Shown piece by piece: positions 15,692 to 26,126 of a stretch of 64,000 bases of DNA (the stretch's first letter is position 1; every line of letters begins with the position of its first letter). The DNA comes from Haloplanus aerogenes (GTDB lineage: Archaea > Halobacteriota > Halobacteria > Halobacteriales > Haloferacaceae): NCBI RefSeq assembly GCF_003856835.1, contig NZ_CP034145.1, positions 2,046,001-2,110,000 on the forward strand, read 5' to 3'. A program made the position numbers and the translations under genes. The notes below the pieces were generated by a model. The model made no database searches, was not told the DNA's origin, and worked only from the letters and a program-made list of their open reading frames with translations.

Positions 15692-16112
15692 CGTTCAGTC
15701 CGACGTGCCCAATCACGTAGCCACCACTCATCGCGACACCCGCCACGGCCATCCGCCAGATGTCGAGCGTCCCGACCGTCTGTGCACCGATCACGCCACC
15801 GACGGTCGCAATTCCGATACCCAGATTCAGCAGCCCGTACTTCGTGATCGCGCCCGTCGCAGTCGTGCGGTCGAGGCGGTCGCGAACGGCGGAAACGCCA
15901 CCCTCCCGGAGCCCGAGTTGGATCGAACGGTATCCCAATCCGAACAGCAGGAACCCGACGTACGCGCGGAGGAAGTCGCCGTCGAACGCCGACACCGCCG
16001 CGAGCGACCCGCCGTAGACGACGACCGAACTCCCACCGAGCAGCCACAGCCACTCCCGGAGCGCCGTGCGCAAGCGATTGGACGGAGACACGAGATCCGC
16101 CACGCCGATCAC
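15678..16112 (-). CDS. four-helix membrane protein A (left copy)
   Basis: This 144-residue protein has about four helices. It is a paralogue of the protein at 17277-17663: VGFLLFGLGYRSIQLGLREG here against VGFALFVGGYRTMQYGVHGW there, and GGYVIGHVGLN against VGYVIGHIAAN at the C-terminus. Its ATG overlaps the GT4 stop by four bases, and its end overlaps the B gene by 14 bases, so all three are translationally coupled. I cannot assign a reaction. Confidence 0.72.
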   Translation of the reverse strand: MIGVADLVSPSNRLRTALREWLWLLGGSSVVVYGGSLAAVSAFDGDFLRAYVGFLLFGLGYRSIQLGLREGGVSAVRDRLDRTTATGAITKYGLLNLGIGIATVGGVIGAQTVGTLDIWRMAVAGVAMSGGYVIGHVGLNDAWL

Positions 16113-17218
16113 CGCAGCCCCCGATAGATGTCAGCTAGCCGTTCGAGCGTCGCGTCGATCGACAGCGTCTCGCGGTGGGCCAGACAGCCGGCTTCGAGGT
16201 CGCTCCGGTCGTCGAGTGCGTCGGCCAGCCGGTCGGCCATCGCGTCCGGATTCCCCGGTTCGAACAGGTAGCCTGTCGTCCCGTCGTCGATGGTCGACCG
16301 GAGGGCGCCGGCGTCCGCACCGACCACGGGCGTCCCGCAGGCGATTGCCTCCAGGCCGACGAGCCCCTCCGTCTCGACCGGGCTGGGGAAACCGAACACG
16401 TCGAGTGCGGTGTAAAACGCCGGGAGTTCCTCGCGGTCCAGAAACCCGACGAAGCGAACGTCGACGTCCCGCCGGCGCGCGAGCCGTCGAAGGTCGTCCG
16501 TCGCAGGACCGTCGCCGCCGAGGACGACGGTAACGTCCCTGTCGAGACGGTCGGCCGCCCGAACCAGATCCTCGATTCGCTTCTCGAAGCCGTGCCGGCC
16601 CGTGTATCCCACCAGCGTCCCGTCGAGCCCGTATCGGTCGCGAAACGCTGTGCCGTCTGCCGGCTGGAACTCTCGAAGATTGATCCCGTTGGAGAGCGTC
16701 CGGACGGGGACCTCGCCGTCGAGGCGCGTTTCGAGTTCGCGCGTCGTCTCGGCGGACGGTGCGAGTACGAGATCCGCCGCCTCGAGCACGCGACGTTCGT
16801 ACGTCGAGAGGCCGGAGGCGAACAGCGACGCCCCCACGTCGGTCGGCACCACGTACTCGGCGTACTCCGCCATCGGCGTGTGATACGAGACGACGAACGG
16901 GAGGTCGTGCGTCCGGGCGAGCACCCAGCCGGCGGCTCCGACCGAAAACACGCTGTGGGCGTGGACGATGTCGGCGTCCCGAACTGCGGAGGGAATCCAC
17001 GGCAGGGCGGCGCGATAGCCCGGATAGAAGGGGAACGGTGCGCTGGAGATCGGATACTCGTGGTCGCGTGGTCGGTGGTCGCTGTCGGGGTACACGACGT
17101 TCATCAGCCCGTACGACTGATTCCAGCGCTCGGCCCACTCCGCGATGGTGTACGTGACGCCGTTGACCGTCGGGAGATACGTATCGGTGAACGCGGCGAC
17201 TTCGAGTCCGTCGGTCAC
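16109..17218 (-). CDS. GT4-family glycosyltransferase
   Basis: This 369-residue enzyme has the GT-B fold: an N-terminal acceptor domain starting FTDTYLPTVNGVTYTIAEWA and a C-terminal nucleotide-sugar domain with VGYTGRHGFEKRIEDLVRA, VLGGDGPATDDLRRLA and PSPVETEGLVGLEAIACGTP (the EX7E-type signature). The closest known role in this subfamily is transfer of a sugar or mannose to a lipid such as diacyl- or archaeol-type glycerols, which is inference here. It is the first gene of a minus-strand unit with two small membrane proteins, which may hold it at the membrane. Confidence 0.88.
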   Translation of the reverse strand: MTDGLEVAAFTDTYLPTVNGVTYTIAEWAERWNQSYGLMNVVYPDSDHRPRDHEYPISSAPFPFYPGYRAALPWIPSAVRDADIVHAHSVFSVGAAGWVLARTHDLPFVVSYHTPMAEYAEYVVPTDVGASLFASGLSTYERRVLEAADLVLAPSAETTRELETRLDGEVPVRTLSNGINLREFQPADGTAFRDRYGLDGTLVGYTGRHGFEKRIEDLVRAADRLDRDVTVVLGGDGPATDDLRRLARRRDVDVRFVGFLDREELPAFYTALDVFGFPSPVETEGLVGLEAIACGTPVVGADAGALRSTIDDGTTGYLFEPGNPDAMADRLADALDDRSDLEAGCLAHRETLSIDATLERLADIYRGLR

Positions 17219-17276
17219 ACAGGGGTGGTGAATCGGTGGCTAAATATAACGACCGGTCGTACGCTCGTCCCGCGAA

Positions 17277-17663
17277 ATGGACGCGACACGGGTCGGGTGG
17301 GTCGTCGTCGGGAGCGCGATCCTCTGTGCCGGGATGACGCTCGTCGGCGTGAACGCGTTCGCCGGGCGACTCTGGCTGGTGGTCGTCGGCTTCGCCCTGT
17401 TCGTCGGTGGCTACCGGACGATGCAGTACGGCGTCCACGGCTGGCCCTCGCTCGACGGCCTCGGCGCGACGAACGCCTCCACCGCCGGATCGCTGGCTCG
17501 TGGCACCGGACTCGCGCTCTCGGTCGTCCTCTGTGCGTACGGCTTCGTCCTCATGGGCGAGGCCGTTCGCGCATCGGCGTGGCAGCCGACGCTGTTCTCC
17601 GGCGCGTCCGTCGTGGTCGGATACGTGATCGGACACATTGCCGCCAACGGCGAGGTGTTGTGA
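17277..17663 (+). CDS. four-helix membrane protein A' (right copy)
   Basis: This 128-residue protein is a paralogue of the A protein at 15678-16112. It starts 58 bases from the divergent GT4 start. The ATG at 17277 is preceded by TAAATATAAC near 17241, a probable TATA element. The stop codon is followed directly by the GTG of the B' gene. Function is not known. Confidence 0.72.
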   Translation: MDATRVGWVVVGSAILCAGMTLVGVNAFAGRLWLVVVGFALFVGGYRTMQYGVHGWPSLDGLGATNASTAGSLARGTGLALSVVLCAYGFVLMGEAVRASAWQPTLFSGASVVVGYVIGHIAANGEVL

Positions 17664-18050
17664 GTGATCGGGCGTCGACGACTCCAGTTGTACGGCGGCT
17701 TGCTCGTTGCGATCATCACGCTCGCGCTCGCCGTCGACTCGGCGGTGCGTGACGGCTACCTCGAGGTGTTCGGCTGGGTCGTGGCGTCGTGGGGGAGCTA
17801 TCTCGTCGCCCACCACGGCGCAACGGGGCGATTCGTCGACGAACCGGGAACGGGAGACGCACCGGCGGTTCCCCAGTCGTTGCCGCGTCGGGCGATCCTC
17901 GTCGCCGCGATTCTGGGGATGGTGGTCGCCTTCCCGCTCGGAATCTTCGCGCTCGCCAACGACTCGTTCGGCGTCCTCCTGACCGCCGCGACCCTCTTCG
18001 TCGGCGCGTACGTCGCGGGCCATCACCTGCTGACCGGACAGCCACTATAG
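17664..18050 (+). CDS. four-helix membrane protein B' (right copy)
   Basis: This 128-residue protein is a paralogue of the B protein at 15275-15691, sharing the AH-x-TGRFVD motif after the second helix and a (L)TG ending. It begins with GTG immediately after the A' TGA stop, so expression is coupled. It has four predicted helices (about residues 8-28, 32-50, 72-90, 95-117). Function is not known. Confidence 0.7.
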   Translation: MIGRRRLQLYGGLLVAIITLALAVDSAVRDGYLEVFGWVVASWGSYLVAHHGATGRFVDEPGTGDAPAVPQSLPRRAILVAAILGMVVAFPLGIFALANDSFGVLLTAATLFVGAYVAGHHLLTGQPL

Positions 18051-18103
18051 ATAGGTACGTGGACACTAGTGTTTTACACGAGTGGCTATCAGTGTAGCTG
18101 ACG

Positions 18104-19561
18104 ATGGGCACCGGATCGCCTGACGACGCACCCACTGTCGACTGGTATCCGACGGATCCAGACCCCGAGCAGCGTCCGTTCAACGCCTTCGTCCGCGGCA
18201 ACGACCTCGCGACCCGCGCCGAACGGCCGTTTTCGTCCCTGAGCTTTCACCAGTTCTGCGCGGTGTCGCCACGAGAGACCTTCTACACGCAGGAGCGACA
18301 GGGGGGATCGGTTCGAATCATGCCGGCTATCGTCCGCCCGGCCCTTCGCTACTGGCCACTGACGATATTCGTCATGACGGTGCTCTATCTCCTCGCCCCC
18401 CTCGTCGAACCGGGTCTCGAACCGGTCTGGGCGTTCTTCCCACCTCTCACCGTCGACAACCTCGTGTGGGTCGCTGGCGTGATCGTCGTGTGGACGACGC
18501 TGTTCGCCATCATCAGTCAGGTCGGCATCGTAACCCGGTATTCGCAACTGGCCAAACCCGCGTTCGTCTACGGCCTCCTCGGCATCCTACTCGCCGGGAC
18601 CGTGTTTTCGGTCTTTCTCGTCTGGAACAGCGACACGCCAGCGACTCTCCCTCGAAACGTCGTCTTCGGTTCGGGCTTTCTCTTCGCCGCCTACGTCTCG
18701 GGGATGATCGCGTACGACCTGTTGATCCGGACGGAGAACATGCTCGAAAACTTCGGGAAGAAGAACATCGTCGAGAACGAAAGGCAGTACGAGGACGTCT
18801 TTCTGTCGGACTTCACGAAGAAACTGGAGGCGTCGGTGTTCGACGTGCCGCTCGCACTCGTCTTCGGCGTCACATTCACCAGTCAGCTCGTGGGGTTCTG
18901 GCTGCTGCAAAACGGGCCACACCAGCTCGATTCGTCCATCGCGCTGGCCTGTAACGCCTTCTTCGACGCCATTCTGATGACGGCAATCTTTCAGTTCTTG
19001 ATCTTCATTCGACAGCTGAACCTGCTGCTGGACGACAAGTACGAACGCGACGGGGAAGCGGTGGTGCTCCAGTTCCAGCCGTTCCACCCGGACGGCCGCG
19101 GCGGGTTCCGAGACATCGGCCGGGCGGCGATGCAGGTGAACGTCCTCGTCATCGTCGCCGGGCTGTACTACGTCTACCGGCTGTACGTGCAGGGGCTTCG
19201 CGCCCTCCCCGCGGGTGGATTCGACGCCCTCCAGAACATGCAGGCCGTCATCTGGCTGATCGACTTCGGCGGCCCCATCGTGCTGTACGCCGTCGTCTCG
19301 GCGGTCTGGCTCTACTACACCTTCTGGACGACACACCTCAAAATGGCCCGGGACAAGGAGCGGATGATCCTGCGACGACAGGCGTCGTACCGCAGCGACA
19401 CTGACGACGAGACCGAACCCATCGGCAGCGTGAACGACAGGGCCGGCTACGAGGAACTGCTCACGTCGCCCGTGTGGCCGCTCGACAGCCGACAGCTCCA
19501 GACCGTCGTGCTGTCGAACATCATCCCACTGTTTCTCACGCTGTCGAGTATTCCCATCTGA
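18104..19561 (+). CDS. multi-spanning membrane protein of unknown function
   Basis: This 485-residue protein has a cytoplasmic N-terminus of about 75 residues, then about eight hydrophobic helices (for example WPLTIFVMTVLYLLAPLV, LVWVAGVIVVWTTLFAIIS, MQVNVLVIVAGLYYVYRLYV). A charged loop lies near residues 205-240 (LLIRTENMLENFGKKNIVEN) and the tail is acidic. I recognise no transporter signature. It stands alone between the B' gene and a convergent GGGP-synthase-like gene only 10 bases away. Confidence 0.7.
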   Translation: MGTGSPDDAPTVDWYPTDPDPEQRPFNAFVRGNDLATRAERPFSSLSFHQFCAVSPRETFYTQERQGGSVRIMPAIVRPALRYWPLTIFVMTVLYLLAPLVEPGLEPVWAFFPPLTVDNLVWVAGVIVVWTTLFAIISQVGIVTRYSQLAKPAFVYGLLGILLAGTVFSVFLVWNSDTPATLPRNVVFGSGFLFAAYVSGMIAYDLLIRTENMLENFGKKNIVENERQYEDVFLSDFTKKLEASVFDVPLALVFGVTFTSQLVGFWLLQNGPHQLDSSIALACNAFFDAILMTAIFQFLIFIRQLNLLLDDKYERDGEAVVLQFQPFHPDGRGGFRDIGRAAMQVNVLVIVAGLYYVYRLYVQGLRALPAGGFDALQNMQAVIWLIDFGGPIVLYAVVSAVWLYYTFWTTHLKMARDKERMILRRQASYRSDTDDETEPIGSVNDRAGYEELLTSPVWPLDSRQLQTVVLSNIIPLFLTLSSIPI

Positions 19562-19571
19562 CCGCTCGCCG

Positions 19572-20825
19572 TCACGCCGACCAGTCCATCGCCCCGATCG
19601 AGAGGTGAGTCACGGGGAGTGCCGACGGGGTGTCGGGGGCCAGAACCCCCGACGCGAGCGCCGTCAGGAACGACCGATCCGGCGGCGAGTCCACGACGGC
19701 ATCCAGCGAGGTGTCGAGCTGCCGGCGCACGCGTGACGGCGAGGAAGCATCCGACGCCAGCGCCGTTTCGAGGCGCCGACAGAGCGCGAGGCCCGTCGCC
19801 AGCAGCGTTCGCGCCCGGTCGACCGGCGCGTCGACGGCAGTCGTCGAGAGATACTGCGCGGCCGCCGTGTCCGCGACGGTGATGGTGTCGTCTAGCCACG
19901 CCTCGATCCGTGCCGTCGTCGGTTCGGCGCCGACGCTCGACTCGGCGTCGAGGCGTCGATAGAGGTCGACCTCCTCGTCGGCGATGTCGTGGAACACGTC
20001 GCCGACGACGACGGCGTCGGCACCCGCCGCTCGCACCGCGCGGGCGTGTTCGCGGGTTCGCAGCCCGCCGCCGTACCAGAGCCGTGCCCAGTTGAGTGCG
20101 GGCGCCACCGCCTCGATCACGTCGGTCGCCGCCTCGCCGCCGTACGTGCCCGAGTACTCGACGTAGATGATCTCGCTCCGCAGGTGGCAGTCGGCGGTGA
20201 CGGCGCGCTGCCGGGCCGCCGTGGGCGAGAGCACGTCCGCGTCGGTCACGCCTGCTTCCCGCGCCGCCGCACTGTCGGGGTTCTGGATGATGTACGCCTC
20301 GAACAGGGCGCGGTTCAGGACCTGTGCGGACAGGACTGGCGTCACGTACGGTCGGATCACGTCGCTCAGCCACGACGGTAGGTGGTCGTCGAGTTGCGTC
20401 GCGATCAGGTCCTCACGAAGTCCCTCGATCGCCTCCCCGAGCGTGCCCACGAGCGCCTCGGAGGTTCCGTTCAGCACCTCGGGCACGGCGAGAAAGGCCG
20501 ACTCGGACAGCGTCGTGTCGGTGACGTGCCTCGGCGCGCTCGGTTCGTGGATCGCGGGCACCGACGCGAACTCGAGGAGGTCGAACGTCTCCTCCGTGGT
20601 GGTCGCGGTGACGCCGGTCGACCCGCCGACCGAGACGGCGTCGGTGTGGGCGAGATACGCGGGATACAGGATCGGGAGCCGTTTCGCCGGTTCGGGGTCG
20701 AGTTTCGTGACGTGCGTCCACGAACGGGGAACTGGGTTCGCGTCGAACACGCCCGCCTGCTCCACGCTGCTCGTGACGCCCTCGGCAATCGAATGAATCC
20801 ACTGCGACACCGACCGCTCGACCAT
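19572..20825 (-). CDS. PcrB/GGGP-synthase-like enzyme, extended
   Basis: This 417-residue protein has the TIM-barrel signatures of the PcrB / geranylgeranylglyceryl-phosphate synthase family: KLDP (41-44), VGGSTG (66-71), YVEYSG (221-226), YGGGLRT (251-257) and VVVGD (272-276). The family joins a prenyl diphosphate to glycerol 1-phosphate, the first ether-lipid step. It is far longer than usual (about 230-250 residues): there is extra sequence in the middle (about 120-170) and a C-terminal extension of about 120 residues with no recognised domain. It may be a paralogue with altered substrate. The divergent partner starts 153 bases away. Confidence 0.8.
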   Translation of the reverse strand: MVERSVSQWIHSIAEGVTSSVEQAGVFDANPVPRSWTHVTKLDPEPAKRLPILYPAYLAHTDAVSVGGSTGVTATTTEETFDLLEFASVPAIHEPSAPRHVTDTTLSESAFLAVPEVLNGTSEALVGTLGEAIEGLREDLIATQLDDHLPSWLSDVIRPYVTPVLSAQVLNRALFEAYIIQNPDSAAAREAGVTDADVLSPTAARQRAVTADCHLRSEIIYVEYSGTYGGEAATDVIEAVAPALNWARLWYGGGLRTREHARAVRAAGADAVVVGDVFHDIADEEVDLYRRLDAESSVGAEPTTARIEAWLDDTITVADTAAAQYLSTTAVDAPVDRARTLLATGLALCRRLETALASDASSPSRVRRQLDTSLDAVVDSPPDRSFLTALASGVLAPDTPSALPVTHLSIGAMDWSA

Positions 20826-20978
20826 GCTCGGGGCGAGGAGGGGACGGCGCTTCTATCCACCGATCCGGGTCGTCGGCCGGCCGGTCGGCCGTGACACGCG
20901 TGGGCGGCGAATCGACGCCCCCGCGGGCAGTCGTGACCAGCCCCAACCAGAAGGTTTGAATAGTTCTGTAGCGGGCAT

Positions 20979-22244
20979 GTGTCTACATCGGCCGCGTCGA
21001 CGACGGGCCGAACGACACACGGAGCCGACACGACCATGGCAGGGAGCACGACGAACGGCGTCTGGCGGCGCGTGGCGGAGAGCATCGCCCAACGGGATGC
21101 GCTCCCGACGCCGGTACGGGCCATTCTGGGGTATTACGCGGACAGCGGACAACTGTCGGTGAGCGCCTTGCGGCTCCAGCGCACCACCGACCGGTTCATG
21201 ACACGGGCCGTCGAGGACCTGTTCGACCCGGTCGAGGCGGCCATCGCCCGGGACGTGGACGCGGCCCCCGACACCGTCGAGTTCGAGTACGATACGAAGC
21301 TCACCCTCCCGGCAGAACTCACGCTCGGCCAGGTGTACTACCGAGCGCGACGGGAGACGCCGGACGGGTTCGACCCCGTGAACCGCGAACTCACGTCGTT
21401 GCGCGCCCGCCTCGGCGGCGCGGACGAGGACCGACTGGCGCGACTGCTCGACGCACACGCCGACCGCCTCGACACCATCGAGCGGGCGGAGCGGATGACC
21501 GAACTGGTCACGGCCGCCCTCGTCGACGGGGATATGCGCGACGCCCTCAACGACGCGGAGTACGAGGACTTCCACGTCGACTTCCCCGTCGCCTCGGACA
21601 AACTGCACCGGGAGATTGCGTCGTGTGCACAGGAGGCGTTGCAGCGACTCGTCGACGAGCGATTCGAGGCGTTCCCGCCCGCGGTGCGCGACGCCTACGA
21701 CGAGGCGGTGGATATCTCGGAGCGGCATCAGGCACGGGACGACCGCTTCCGGACGCTGGCGCGTCGGGCGCGGGACGGAGACGACGACGCCGTCGTGGCC
21801 ATCGAATCGGAGTACAAGTTCGCCGACTTCGACACGCCGCCGCCGGTGTTCGACGACGACGACCTCGAACTGCCGTATCTCAAGACCCAGTATCGTCGCG
21901 TCGGCGTCATCTATCGAGGGATGATCGAGATGTACCGGGCGGCGGACATCGACATCGACAGGGCGTTCGAGAAGTCGATCATCTTCGCCATCATCGGCGC
22001 GCAGGTGTGGCTCGACGACGTGGACGACTACGAGGCCGACTACGCCGAAGATCAGCTCACGCCGGTCACGGCCGAGTACCTGCTGGCGTCGGACGACGAG
22101 ACGGCGTATCGACGCGTCGTCGACATTTCGCGGACGTATCTCGACGCCGCGAAAGCGCACGCGGAGGCGTCGAACTCCCCGCTCGCGGGGATCGGAAGCG
22201 ACTACATCTATCGCTCCGGCGATCCGTCGGTGTTGCCGCGGTAG
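20979..22244 (+). CDS. helical protein with DDVDD motif, possible prenyl-synthase-like
   Basis: This 421-residue protein appears mostly alpha-helical and acidic. Residues 346-350 are DDVDD, within QVWLDDVDDYEADYAEDQ, in a helix-rich region (YRGMIEMYRAADIDIDRAF before it). This looks like the Asp-rich metal site of class I prenyl/terpene synthases, but a second metal motif is not clear and the family is unknown to me. A GTG at 20979 lies about 24 bases after TTTGAATA (20955-20962), suggesting a leaderless start; ATG at 21036 is the alternative and would shorten it by 19 residues. It is divergent from the GGGP-synthase-like gene, a hint of shared prenyl chemistry. Confidence 0.65.
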   Translation: MSTSAASTTGRTTHGADTTMAGSTTNGVWRRVAESIAQRDALPTPVRAILGYYADSGQLSVSALRLQRTTDRFMTRAVEDLFDPVEAAIARDVDAAPDTVEFEYDTKLTLPAELTLGQVYYRARRETPDGFDPVNRELTSLRARLGGADEDRLARLLDAHADRLDTIERAERMTELVTAALVDGDMRDALNDAEYEDFHVDFPVASDKLHREIASCAQEALQRLVDERFEAFPPAVRDAYDEAVDISERHQARDDRFRTLARRARDGDDDAVVAIESEYKFADFDTPPPVFDDDDLELPYLKTQYRRVGVIYRGMIEMYRAADIDIDRAFEKSIIFAIIGAQVWLDDVDDYEADYAEDQLTPVTAEYLLASDDETAYRRVVDISRTYLDAAKAHAEASNSPLAGIGSDYIYRSGDPSVLPR

Positions 22245-22331
22245 CCACGGTCGCGCCGCTGGCGCGAGCGGCGTCACACGGCACGCCACCGATGAGTTAG
22301 CTTTTCGGTCGTGGACCGTTCAGACACCCCT

Positions 22332-23189
22332 ATGCAGGTCCACACGGTCGGTGAGGGGACTCCCGAGGTTGCGGTCGTCGGTGCGGTCCACGGGGACGAA
22401 CCCTGTGGCGCTCGCGCCATCGAGCGCTTTCTCGATTCCGACCCCGAGGTCGACCGCCCGGCGAAGCTGATCATCGCGAACGAACGCGCCCTCGATCAGG
22501 GCGTCCGGTACGTCGAGACGGATCTGAACCGCGCGCTCCCCGGCGACCCCGAGAGCGACCTGTACGAGGAACGTCTCGCGTACGACCTCATGCAGGAAGT
22601 GCGGGACTGCGTCTCCCTCGGCATCCACTCGACGGTGTCGTATCAGGACGCCTTCGCCAACGTGGCGTATCTGAACGAGCGGAAACGCGACATCGTCGCC
22701 CACCTCCCCGTCACCGGCGTCGTCGACTTCACCGTCGTCGCCGACGGGCGATCGGTCGAACTGCCGGGTTTCGTCGACATCGAGGCCGGGTATCAGGGTT
22801 CGGCCGAGGCCGTCGACAACGCCTACGACTGCCTCCGTGCCTTCCTCCAGACGACGGGCGTCCTGCCCGGCGACCCGCCGGCACCCGATCCGGGATTCTA
22901 CGAGGTGACCGAACCCATCTACAAGGACCCCGGCAAGGAGTACGAGTTCCTCGGCGAGAACTTCGAACGCGTCGACGCCGGCGAGCAGTTCGCCACCGTC
23001 GACGGCGCTCCCTTGACCGCGGACGAGCCGTTCTGGCCCATCCTCATGTCCAGCGACGGTCACGACGTGTTGCTCGGCTACCGATCCAACTATCACGGGC
23101 CCCTCTCGTCGCTCTCGCTGTCGGCCGTCGACGCCGACGCGGACGCCGCCAACGCCGACGCCACCGACGACCCCGTCGCCGAAGACTAG
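22332..23189 (+). CDS. AstE/AspA (aspartoacylase) family metal hydrolase
   Basis: This 285-residue protein belongs to the succinylglutamate desuccinylase / aspartoacylase branch of the M14 zinc enzymes. The metal site begins GAVHGDEPCGARA (His20, Glu23), and the third ligand is probably the His of GIHST. ETDLNRALPGDP matches the conserved substrate loop. The natural substrate, an N-acyl amino acid or similar amide, cannot be read. ATG 22332 is preferred over a GTG at 22311 because the family N-terminus matches there. The end overlaps the convergent kptA by four bases. Confidence 0.85.
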   Translation: MQVHTVGEGTPEVAVVGAVHGDEPCGARAIERFLDSDPEVDRPAKLIIANERALDQGVRYVETDLNRALPGDPESDLYEERLAYDLMQEVRDCVSLGIHSTVSYQDAFANVAYLNERKRDIVAHLPVTGVVDFTVVADGRSVELPGFVDIEAGYQGSAEAVDNAYDCLRAFLQTTGVLPGDPPAPDPGFYEVTEPIYKDPGKEYEFLGENFERVDAGEQFATVDGAPLTADEPFWPILMSSDGHDVLLGYRSNYHGPLSSLSLSAVDADADAANADATDDPVAED

Positions 23190-23872
23190 TCCTCGATAAT
23201 CGTCAGGTACGACGGCGGCACCCGGTCCACCGTGTACGTCTCGTTGCCGCGTTTCGTAATTCGATACTCCCCCAGCAGTGCCGCCGCATCGACTTCGAAC
23301 ACGACGGGGTCGGCCGCGTGTCGCCGCCCGACGGCGTGGGCATCTTCGACAGAGGCCGAGAGATGCACCTGCTGGCGGCTCATCGGCTTCAACCCTTCCG
23401 ACCGGATGGCGTCGACGTTGTCCGGCGTGGTGCCGTGATACAACTCGTCCGGCACCGGCGCGTCCGTAGGTTCGAGGTCGACGGCGACGGAGTGGCCGTA
23501 GGCGGCGCGGACGCGGTCGGTGTCGGCGTCGCTATCACCGGCCTCCGGCCGGTTTCCGGAGGAACGTCGTTCCTCGCTATCACGCTCGAACCGCCCTTTC
23601 GGATCGGTAGCGACGACGCCCGCGACCGCCGCCTCGTCGGCCCACGGATACCGATCCGTCGCCACCGTGACGAGGTCGGCCCACGCCACCCAGCCCCGGT
23701 CGTCGAGCGAGAGGCCCACGTCGTCGGGGAAGTGCCGGAGCGCGCCGCTGAGAAATTTGGAGAGGCGGGTGCGACGGTCCGCCGAGAGTACCGTCTCGCC
23801 GGTGGCGCCACAGACCGGACACGTGCCATCCGTGTAGCCGTGGTCCGGACAGCGTCGAACGGGGTCGGTCAC
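23186..23872 (-). CDS. kptA: RNA 2'-phosphotransferase with zinc-finger N-terminus
   Basis: This 228-residue KptA/Tpt1 enzyme moves a 2'-phosphate from RNA to NAD+. After a short Cys-rich head (CPDHG and CPVCG) comes the winged-helix part (RLSKFLSGALRHFPDDVGLS, DDRGWVAWADLV). The catalytic ART-like part follows (AAYGHS, ELYHGTT, RQQVHLSASVEDAHAVGRRH, DPVVFEVDAAAL). The start is a GTG at 23870-23872. The hinge between the two parts holds a 15-residue insertion discussed as a repeat feature. The gene follows sucD on the same strand with a 31-base gap. Confidence 0.88.
   Translation of the reverse strand: MTDPVRRCPDHGYTDGTCPVCGATGETVLSADRRTRLSKFLSGALRHFPDDVGLSLDDRGWVAWADLVTVATDRYPWADEAAVAGVVATDPKGRFERDSEERRSSGNRPEAGDSDADTDRVRAAYGHSVAVDLEPTDAPVPDELYHGTTPDNVDAIRSEGLKPMSRQQVHLSASVEDAHAVGRRHAADPVVFEVDAAALLGEYRITKRGNETYTVDRVPPSYLTIIED
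23530..23583. repeat. 45-base palindromic insertion inside kptA flanked by 9-bp direct repeats
   Basis: CGCTATCAC occurs at 23530-23538 and again at 23575-23583. The stretch between contains two perfect stems: CCGGCC/GGCCGG with loop TCC (starting at 23538) and GAGGAAC/GTTCCTC with loop GTC (23559-23575). The unit is 45 bases, so it adds exactly 15 codons (SEERRSSGNRPEAGD-like) and leaves kptA in frame. The position is the linker between the winged-helix and catalytic parts. It resembles a protein-coding palindromic element; a search of the genome is needed to show that it is mobile. Confidence 0.6.
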
Positions 23873-23903
23873 GGGCCAGCGTAGGCGGCCCGCCGGAAAA
23901 AGC

Positions 23904-24773
23904 CTAGAGGAAGCCTTCGATGTGGTCCGCGACTTCCTCGGGGGTGTCGCCGACGGGGACGCCCGCGTTGTTGAGCGCCTCGATCTTGCTTTCGGCCGTC
24001 CCGGTGCCGCTCCCGGAGACGATGGCGCCAGCGTGGCCCATGCGCTTGCCCGGCGGGGCCGTCCGCCCGGCGATGAACGCGGCGACCGGCGTGTCCATCT
24101 CGGTCGCGATGAACTCCGCGGCCTCCTCCTCGTCCTCGCCGCCGATTTCACCACACATGGCGACGGCTTCGGTCTCCTCGTCCGCCTCGAAGAGTTCGAG
24201 GGCGTCGATGAAGGAGGTGCCGATGATCGGGTCGCCGCCGATGCCGATGGCCGTCGTCTGCCCAATGCCCCGCTGGGTCAGGTTGTCGACCACCTGATAC
24301 GTGAGGGTACCCGACCGGGAGACGAGGCCCACGTTGCCGTCCGCGAAGATGTTGCCCGGCAGGATGCCGAGTTTCGCCTCGCCGGGCGTGATGACGCCGG
24401 GGCAGTTCGGGCCGACGAGGTAGGTGTCCGTCTCCGAGAGCCGGCGGTTCACCTTCGCCATGTCCTGTGTCGGAATCCCTTCGGTGATGGCGACCACGAG
24501 GTCGAGCGACGTGTCGAGCGCCTCGAACAGGGCGTCCGCGGCGAAGGCGGGCGGCACGAAGACGACGGAGGCGTCCGCGTCCTCGCGGCGCACCGCCTCG
24601 TGGACCGTGTCGTAGACGGGGACACCGTGGACCTCCTGTCCTCCCTTGCCCGGCACCGCGCCGGCGACGACGTTCGTCCCGTACTCGATCATCTGCTCGG
24701 CGTGGAAGTTGCCCTCGCCGCCGGTGATGCCCTGCACGACGACGCGGGTGTCGTCGTCGACGAGGACACTCAT
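23904..24773 (-). CDS. sucD: succinate-CoA ligase alpha subunit
   Basis: This 289-residue subunit carries the CoA-binding Rossmann part ([18 protein letters not shown]), the conserved [17 protein letters not shown], and the phosphohistidine loop in [15 protein letters not shown]. With SucC it interconverts succinyl-CoA and succinate with NTP formation in the citric acid cycle. It overlaps sucC by four bases. A T-rich run after the stop (CTTTTTCC on the minus strand near 23897) may terminate the transcript. Confidence 0.95.
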
Positions 24774-25915
24774 CGGCCCACCTCCTCGGCGTTCTGCACC
24801 GCACGCTGCACGGCATCTTCGAGTGTCCGTTCGACCTGCACCAGTTCCGTGTTCAGGATCTCCATACCCTCCTCGGCGTTGGTGCCGGCGAGGCGGACGA
24901 CCACGGGTTTCGGAATCTCGTCGAACTGCGAGAGGGCGTCGTTGATCCCCTGTGCCACCTCGTCGCCACGGGTGATGCCGCCGAAGATGTTGAACACGAC
25001 GGAGTCGACGTTCGGGTCGGAGAAGACCATATCGAGAGCGTTGGCGACGCGTTCGGCCTTGGCGCCGCCGCCGATGTCGAGGAAGTTGGCTGGCTCGCCG
25101 CCGTAGTAGTCGACGAGGTCGAGCGTCGTCATCACGAGACCCGCGCCGTTGCCGATGATGCCGACGTTGCCCGAGAGGCGGACGTAGTCGAAGCCGTACT
25201 CGCCGGCTTTGCGCTCCAGTTCGTCCGTGTAGGACTCCTCCTCCATCTCCGCCAGATCGGGATGCCGGAAGAGCGCGTCGTCGTCGACGTTCATCACGGC
25301 GTCGGCGGCGACCACCTCGCCCCCATCGGTCACCATCAGGGGGTTGATCTCCGTCTCGCTGGCGTCGTTCGCCTCCCAGAGATCGTACAGCGTCTCCAGC
25401 ACGCTCGAGACGGCCCGGGATACGTCGCGGGGGACGCCTGCCTCGTACACCGCCTTCCGCGCCTGGAAGGAGTGGAGGCCGAAGGCGGGGTCGACGTGTT
25501 CGCGCGCGATAGCCTCGGGGTTCGTCTCCGCGACTTCCTCGATGTCGACGCCGCCCTCGGAGGAGACCATCACGACGGGTTCGCCCTCGCCGCGGTCCAG
25601 CGTCACGCCGAGATAGAGTTCGTCGGTGAAGTCGACGGCCGACTCGACGAGGACGCGGTCGACGTGGTACCCCTTGAGATCCATACCCAGAATGCGCTCG
25701 GCGGCCTCGCGGAGTTCGGCCTCGTCGCTCGCGATCTCGATGCCACCGGCCTTGCCGCGCCCGCCGACGTGGACCTGCGCCTTGACCGCGACGGGGTAGC
25801 CCATGTCGGTGCCGGCGTCGACCGCTTCGTCGACGCTCGTCGCGAGCCGGGAGTCGGGAGTCGGAATCCCGGCCTCGGCGAAGACACCCTTCGCCTGATA
25901 CTCGTGGAGTTTCAT
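24770..25915 (-). CDS. sucC: succinate-CoA ligase beta subunit
   Basis: This 381-residue subunit starts [20 protein letters not shown] and has the ATP-grasp fold: [16 protein letters not shown] near residue 45, the acidic metal site EINPLMV near 195, and the CoA-ligase tail [17 protein letters not shown]. It forms the nucleotide-binding half of the enzyme with SucD. ATG 25913-25915 is chosen because the standard N-terminus begins there; a further in-frame ATG lies five codons upstream. The gene is divergent from the nar operon. Confidence 0.95.
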
Positions 25916-26126
25916 CGATGAATCGGGCAACAGTTGCGTCGAACGGGAGTTAGTAGTATCGGTCGGGGAGGCCCGCGCCGACCGGAAGATGCGGCAGGGA
26001 TCAAAAATCCATCCCCGAACATTGGTCCCACTTTTTTGTAACTCGCGACCCCTTTACCGGGACTGTGGTACCAGTTCCCACTATGACCGGGTCACCACCA
26101 CCAGCCGACCGACCGATCGTCGAGCC
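25916..26126. promoter_or_regulatory. divergent sucC / nar operon promoter region
   Basis: These 211 bases separate sucC from narA. Two copies of TCCCACT occur at 26026-26032 and 26076-26082, 50 bases apart, each after a G(G/T)T, and the first is preceded by GAACATTGG. T-rich and CTTTAC stretches near 26031 and 26052 may belong to the nar promoter. Nitrate reductase operons in haloarchaea are switched on under anoxia and nitrate; which of these bases do this is inference. Confidence 0.4.

Follow-up and report, generated by a model that had tools for sequence, protein, structure and literature searches.

A lengthened GGGP synthase and its helical partner, a candidate replacement for the UbiA-type DGGGP synthase in Halobacteria

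In the stretch of 64,000 nucleotides of Haloplanus aerogenes DNA analysed here (the window), a lengthened group I GGGP synthase, designated PcrBx, is encoded divergently from an orphan all-alpha protein, its partner, which is probably a soluble prenyltransferase of class I fold that acts as a non-orthologous replacement of the UbiA-type DGGGP synthase (DGGGPS). The partner is similar in fold to class I isoprenoid synthases, carries invariant acidic motifs, is linked to PcrBx and to other genes of ether-lipid synthesis, and is distributed in near-perfect complementarity to the UbiA-type enzyme, and PcrBx is the sole GGGPS homologue of a subset of genomes.

PcrBx and its partner form a conserved pair

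PcrBx (417 aa; 19572..20825, minus strand) was called from its open reading frame, a Pfam PcrB match, a structural model and its catalytic residues, and the partner (421 aa; 20979..22244, plus strand), a candidate alternative DGGGP synthase, from its open reading frame, model and phyletic pattern; the partner frame starts at a GTG, with an alternative in-frame ATG at residue 20. In a survey of 391 Halobacteria genomes, the partner was found in 88 and PcrBx in 50, and a marginal partner match in genome G095 (E 9e-4) did not hold up in a profile search. All 50 PcrBx genomes also carry the partner, the two genes lying within 4 kb of each other in 43 of them, on different contigs in 4 and far apart in 3, and the close pairs can be divergent, co-directional or convergent. 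As the partner is conserved in 66 homologues and the pair recurs in 43 genomes, a recurrence that an earlier sequence-only reading of this locus had proposed to look for, the association is beyond chance and the pair is real. An apparent partner-PcrBx fusion in one locus (L150) was discarded as an artefact, the reading frame having run across the Ns of a scaffold gap.

PF01884 and TIGR04147 searches revealed PcrBx as the only PcrB homologue in 20 genomes from five genera, several of them single-contig assemblies, which appear to fall in Halorhabdus, Halapricum, Halovenus and relatives. The partner occurs without PcrBx in 38 genomes, from which it follows that the partner can function without PcrBx; Haloarcula, Halomicrobium and Haloplanus are apparently among the genera with the partner only. 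The partner spans 20 genera and four families in the survey, and none was detected outside Halobacteria: a search of 295 genomes across the phylum gave only eight matches, all of them in Halobacteria. In the partner tree, Halogranum groups with Halorussus (100/100) and Halorubellus with Halosimplex (100/99), cutting across families, and the PcrBx tree likewise pairs Halorubellus with Halosimplex, a pattern that suggests transfer of the genes between families.

Another Haloplanus locus (L114) holds a different partner copy (about 50% identity) at the same place as window positions 20979-25930, in the opposite orientation and adjoining an aspartoacylase-like gene and sucCD, as in the window; the comparison suggests an in-place swap of the partner for a foreign copy together with PcrBx. 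A minus-strand frame at 23186-24265 of the window carries an RNA 2'-phosphotransferase (Tpt1/KptA) domain.

PcrBx is predicted to be a functional GGGP synthase

The PcrB/GGGPS motifs that the sequence-only reading had recognised in the minus-strand protein (KLDP, VGGSTG, YVEYSG and YGGGLRT) are all present, and the Pfam PcrB match extends over residues 35-286 (E 2.5e-25; 89.7 bits against a curated cut-off of 23.9). PcrBx did not reach the cut-off of TIGR04147, the equivalog of the typical haloarchaeal GGGPS (93 bits vs 300). By Pfam match and model, residues 35-286 (19968..20723, minus strand) form the TIM-barrel GGGPS domain, and a structure search matched the PcrBx model to the A. fulgidus GGGPS 8ruw (E 2e-15, TM 0.80 by target). 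About 170 extra residues had also been claimed for this protein; the gain in length is real, and is made up of a helical insert at about residues 137-171 (20313..20417, minus strand), seen in the model and the alignment, and a C-terminal helical extension of about 130 residues (287-417; 19575..19967, minus strand), both missing from canonical GGGPS.

The catalytic residues D13, Y124, Y165 and E167 (A. fulgidus numbering) correspond to D43, Y178, Y221 and E223 in PcrBx, which also keeps the phosphate-binding loop residues S225/G226, G252/G253 and V274/G275, all of them named as metal-, G1P- or catalysis-related (PMC9385802). The column of the chain-length limiter W99 is occupied by Tyr or His in most PcrBx members and by Gly135 in that of the window. 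PcrBx shares 36-44% identity with short divergent haloarchaeal PcrB paralogues, probably the IaH2 group described in PMC9385802, vs about 30% with the canonical enzyme. The best reading of these residues, and of the genomes in which it is the sole PcrB homologue, is that PcrBx is a functional GGGP synthase, as predicted from sequence and model. The separate GGGPS of normal length that had been suggested as a point to check is present in the window genome (G000:C1:899281-899952).

The partner resembles class I isoprenoid synthases in fold and motif order

No Pfam, NCBIfam or PDB sequence match was found for the partner, nor any TM-like segment. Its AlphaFold model is all-helical (pLDDT 92.4), and the top 50 matches of a Foldseek search against the PDB were class I isoprenoid synthases, including isoprenyl diphosphate synthases. 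The best match had an E value of 0.003, with probabilities up to 1.00 and TM scores by target up to 0.59, no E value falling below 0.001 and the query-normalised TM reaching only about 0.4. In an independent viral structure library, the best matches by probability or TM included a trans-prenyltransferase, with a probability of 0.87, and a UbiA protein, with a TM by target of 0.47 at low probability. When the partner profile, whole or in pieces, was compared with that of 20 haloarchaeal isoprenyl diphosphate synthases, no match emerged (hhalign probability 0.2%), and homology at the sequence level was rejected; because sequence profiles miss the relation, the fold assignment rests on structure and motif order. 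With moderate support, the partner resembles class I isoprenoid synthases, the fold that the sequence-only reading had anticipated; the unrelated fold, unconserved DDVDD or pair in a single genome that would have spoken against that reading did not occur.

In the model, DGDxRDAxND closes helix 161-191, KTQY lies close to the start of helix 301-321, and LDDxDDxxxD closes helix 328-349. Acidic motif 1, DGDMRDALNDAE (residues 183-194; 21525..21560, plus strand), stands at the C-terminal end of the first of these helices, in a FARM-like position, with D185/D188/D192 as its DxxDxxxD. Its residues D183, G184, D185, D188, N191, D192 and E194 are invariant in the 66 homologues, and the core DGDMRDALND (residues 183-192) follows a GDxxDAxND pattern in 66/66. 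Acidic motif 2, DDVDDYEAD (residues 346-354; 22014..22040, plus strand), stands at the C-terminal end of helix 328-349 in the SARM position, with D346, D347, D350 and D354 in 66/66 and D349 in 65/66 (pattern LDDxDDxxxD). DDVDD had been taken as an Asp-rich prenyl-synthase site and as the only visible motif of the protein; it does lie at the position of the second Asp-rich motif and is conserved, but it is not alone, as DGDMRDALND is equally invariant.

As placed by the model, KTQY (residues 302-305; 21882..21893, plus strand) lies at a helix start like the KT motif of isoprenyl diphosphate synthases, with K302 in 44, T303 in 64 and Q304 and Y305 in all of the 66 homologues. YDTKLTLP (residues 104-111; 21288..21311, plus strand), in which Y104, T106, L108 and P111 are invariant and position 107 is K or R in the same homologues, appears to take the place of GGKRxRP without its arginine. 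Mapped from the model helices, the order of the partner motifs would follow the relative positions of FARM, KT and SARM. Paired DxxDxxxD motifs, which resemble the two of the M. jannaschii DGGGPS (PMC9385802), occur in all 66 homologues; two such motifs also arose in 457 of 2000 shuffles of the acidic partner, so the pair by itself is weak evidence. The invariance of the acidic motifs argues for metal-dependent catalysis, as a prediction.

The partner is linked to genes of ether-lipid synthesis

Next to PcrBx the window encodes M485 (18104..19561, plus strand), a 485-aa multi-span membrane protein with 8 TM-like segments that is a recurrent PcrBx neighbour, and two small membrane proteins recurrent with it, m1 (17277..17663, plus strand) and m2 (17664..18050, plus strand); no Pfam family scored above cut-off for any of the three. 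A GT4 glycosyltransferase (16109..17218, minus strand; Pfam Glycos_transf_1, 2e-31), also found in the Halorubellus cluster L127 with 66% identity, joins the M485 set in two loci. PcrBx occurs together with M485, m1 and m2 in the window, Halorubellus L127 and Halorhabdus L152, and near an M485 homologue only in Halomarina L092. These membrane sets with PcrBx thus stand in unrelated genera (window 16109-19561, L127 4394-7834, L152 4799-7411, L092 4830-5765) and are possibly a lipid transport or glycolipid module.

In Halorhabdus, the partner, an isoprenyl diphosphate synthase, m1, m2, an M485 homologue and PcrBx form a co-directional run, an apparent operon, adjoined by a divergent GGR-family gene. 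At the Haloarcula locus inspected, the gene divergent from the partner encodes a digeranylgeranylglycerophospholipid reductase (NF041385; 771.6 vs a cut-off of 700 bits) and belongs to a neighbour cluster common to 21 loci. The partner is repeatedly linked to ether-lipid synthesis, with or without PcrBx.

Each of the 45 genomes checked has at least two ordinary isoprenyl diphosphate synthases (PF00348), which rules out the partner as a substitute for the ordinary GGPP synthase. A third type of these synthases, of about 363 aa and with a GTIIVDDVED motif, was seen in loci L157-L163 and L171; among the 45 genomes it occurs almost only where the canonical GGGPS is missing, plus Halomarina. The Halorhabdus genomes G050 and G089 have a different isoprenyl diphosphate synthase inside the partner-PcrBx operon.

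We consider it unlikely that the partner is a divergent isoprenyl diphosphate synthase, or the regulatory subunit of one, making GGPP or a longer prenyl diphosphate or channelling it to GGGPS while another protein makes the second ether bond. Isoprenyl diphosphate synthases are among its top structural matches, a complete DDxxD occupies its SARM position, and a real synthase gene adjoins it in Halorhabdus. In known enzymes, however, IPP and diphosphate are bound by the arginine of GGKRxRP, the first Asp of FARM and the RRG that follows it; the arginine and RRG, present in the local isoprenyl diphosphate synthases, are lacking in the partner, which suggests an acceptor other than IPP, and the first FARM Asp is not conserved in its family. 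Moreover, as the genomes checked keep their ordinary synthases, there is no gap for the partner to fill, and the absence of DGGGPS from 86 genomes, described below, would be left unexplained.

The partner and the UbiA-type DGGGP synthase have complementary distributions

An early hint came from a count of UbiA proteins in 45 genomes, in which the DGGGP synthase group was missing from partner genomes. In a class-wide NF009521 search of the 391 genomes, with absence defined as a best E weaker than 1e-70, 86 genomes had the partner without NF009521, 299 had NF009521 only, two (G238 and G300) had both and four had neither. Of the 88 partner genomes, 86 thus lack DGGGPS, which 299 of the remaining 303 genomes possess (Fisher p 7e-79, a value that overstates the evidence because related genomes are not independent). 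About a quarter of the haloarchaeal species sampled, including Haloarcula and Halorhabdus, lack an NF009521 DGGGPS, and so does the window genome (best E 8e-8), whose NCYYDRDID UbiA protein was rejected as DGGGPS on being heme-O-synthase-like (209.7 bits vs the TIGR01473 cut-off of 210.3).

Among the genomes with neither enzyme, G186, G199 and G365 are fragmented drafts, and G322, a six-contig assembly, may hold yet another solution. In two genomes of family f4 (G043 and G077; loci L075 and L076), which lack canonical GGGPS, the sole PcrB homologue is a short divergent paralogue that is probably of the IaH2 group. Because these two keep the UbiA DGGGPS, its loss tracks the partner and not the type of GGGPS. 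The sequence-only reading had placed the pair in a lipid branch beside normal ether-lipid synthesis, a proposal that we abandon: as PcrBx is the sole GGGPS of 20 genomes and the partner is complementary to DGGGP synthase, both look like enzymes of the main pathway.

It is improbable that DGGGP is made by a paralogous UbiA protein while the partner serves the pathway in another way, such as carrying GGGP or acting as a scaffold. UbiA proteins are versatile and some partner genomes hold extra weak ones; in addition, DGGGPS was found in nearly all archaea sampled and, after a wider UbiA tree, Thaumarchaeota, with no DGGGPS orthologue, possibly use another enzyme, which may be a paralogue (PMC6431249). 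Nevertheless, the complete partner genome G002 encodes only three UbiA proteins, namely heme O synthase, MenA and a PRK12875-type prenyltransferase, and the invariant acidic motifs of the partner argue for metal-dependent catalysis. The weak UbiA proteins of partner genomes were rejected as DGGGPS: a lycopene-cyclase-type domain is present in two of the annotated ones, and no such protein occurs in G002. In partner genomes (L223 1096-2529 and L220 1078-2298), a low-scoring UbiA protein with the motif DDAxDxxYD is joined to such a domain of the CarR type.

That the complementarity reflects shared ancestry, an early partner gain and DGGGPS loss in a few clades with no functional connection, is very improbable: a few genera do give much of the count (24 genomes in g29 alone), but the state varies inside genera, G310 being unlike the other clear-state g2 genomes and G159 unlike the other g65 genomes, the partner tree cuts across families, and an essential lipid enzyme cannot be lost unless another takes its place.

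A proposed route to the second ether bond

As a replacement for the UbiA-type enzyme, the partner would take the step that follows GGGP synthase. PcrBx would make the first ether bond and supply GGGP, the partner would ionise GGPP with Mg bound at its two acidic motifs, and the C-2 hydroxyl of GGGP would attack the ionised GGPP to give DGGGP, with the second ether bond of archaeal membrane lipids; the extra domains of PcrBx may serve to bind the partner or to pass GGGP on. The earlier proposal that one gene makes or holds a prenyl diphosphate and the other transfers it stands as regards prenyl chemistry, although for the partner transfer of the second chain is more likely than supply of prenyl diphosphate. 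In its conserved structural elements, UbiA DGGGPS is similar to the soluble GGPP and FPP synthases (PMC9385802), a likeness that makes a soluble class I enzyme for the DGGGP step chemically reasonable. A point against the partner as DGGGP synthase is that its acceptor GGGP is expected to be membrane-associated and the partner has no TM-like segment. Tentatively, PcrBx and the partner might even be a soluble complex that builds both ether bonds off the membrane, the partner being a new family that has repeatedly displaced UbiA DGGGPS.

Formation of the second ether bond is regarded as a UbiA reaction and as nearly universal among archaea, and Halobacteria are said to possess a DGGGPS (PMC9179154). 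In the literature searched, mostly without subscription papers, we found no report of DGGGPS lacking in Haloarcula or relatives and no description of the partner family. If the partner is the substitute, an enzyme can be named for the haloarchaeal DGGGPS gap: a class I protein that does in soluble form what a UbiA enzyme does in the membrane, is possibly easier to use in archaeal-lipid engineering and bears on the evolution of the archaeal membrane pathway.

Comparison with known systems

Compared with group I GGGP synthase/PcrB (PF01884; the haloarchaeal IaH1 and IaH2 paralogues), PcrBx shares the fold, the G1P site and the catalytic residues, and differs in its insert, its long C-terminal extension and the altered W99 column. 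The closest fold to the partner by Foldseek is that of the trans-isoprenyl diphosphate synthases (PF00348; GGPP, FPP and octaprenyl), with which it has in common the DDxxD in SARM position and KT at a helix start, whereas its FARM is altered to GDMRD with no RRG after it and YDTKLxLP lacks the arginine of GGKRxRP. The UbiA-type DGGGP synthases (NF009521; M. jannaschii DGGGPS, PDB 6M31) are integral membrane proteins with no detectable sequence similarity to the partner, which has no such membrane segment; yet both are helical proteins with two acidic motifs, prenyltransferases by function or by prediction, and their distributions are complementary, as would fit the reaction that we propose they share.
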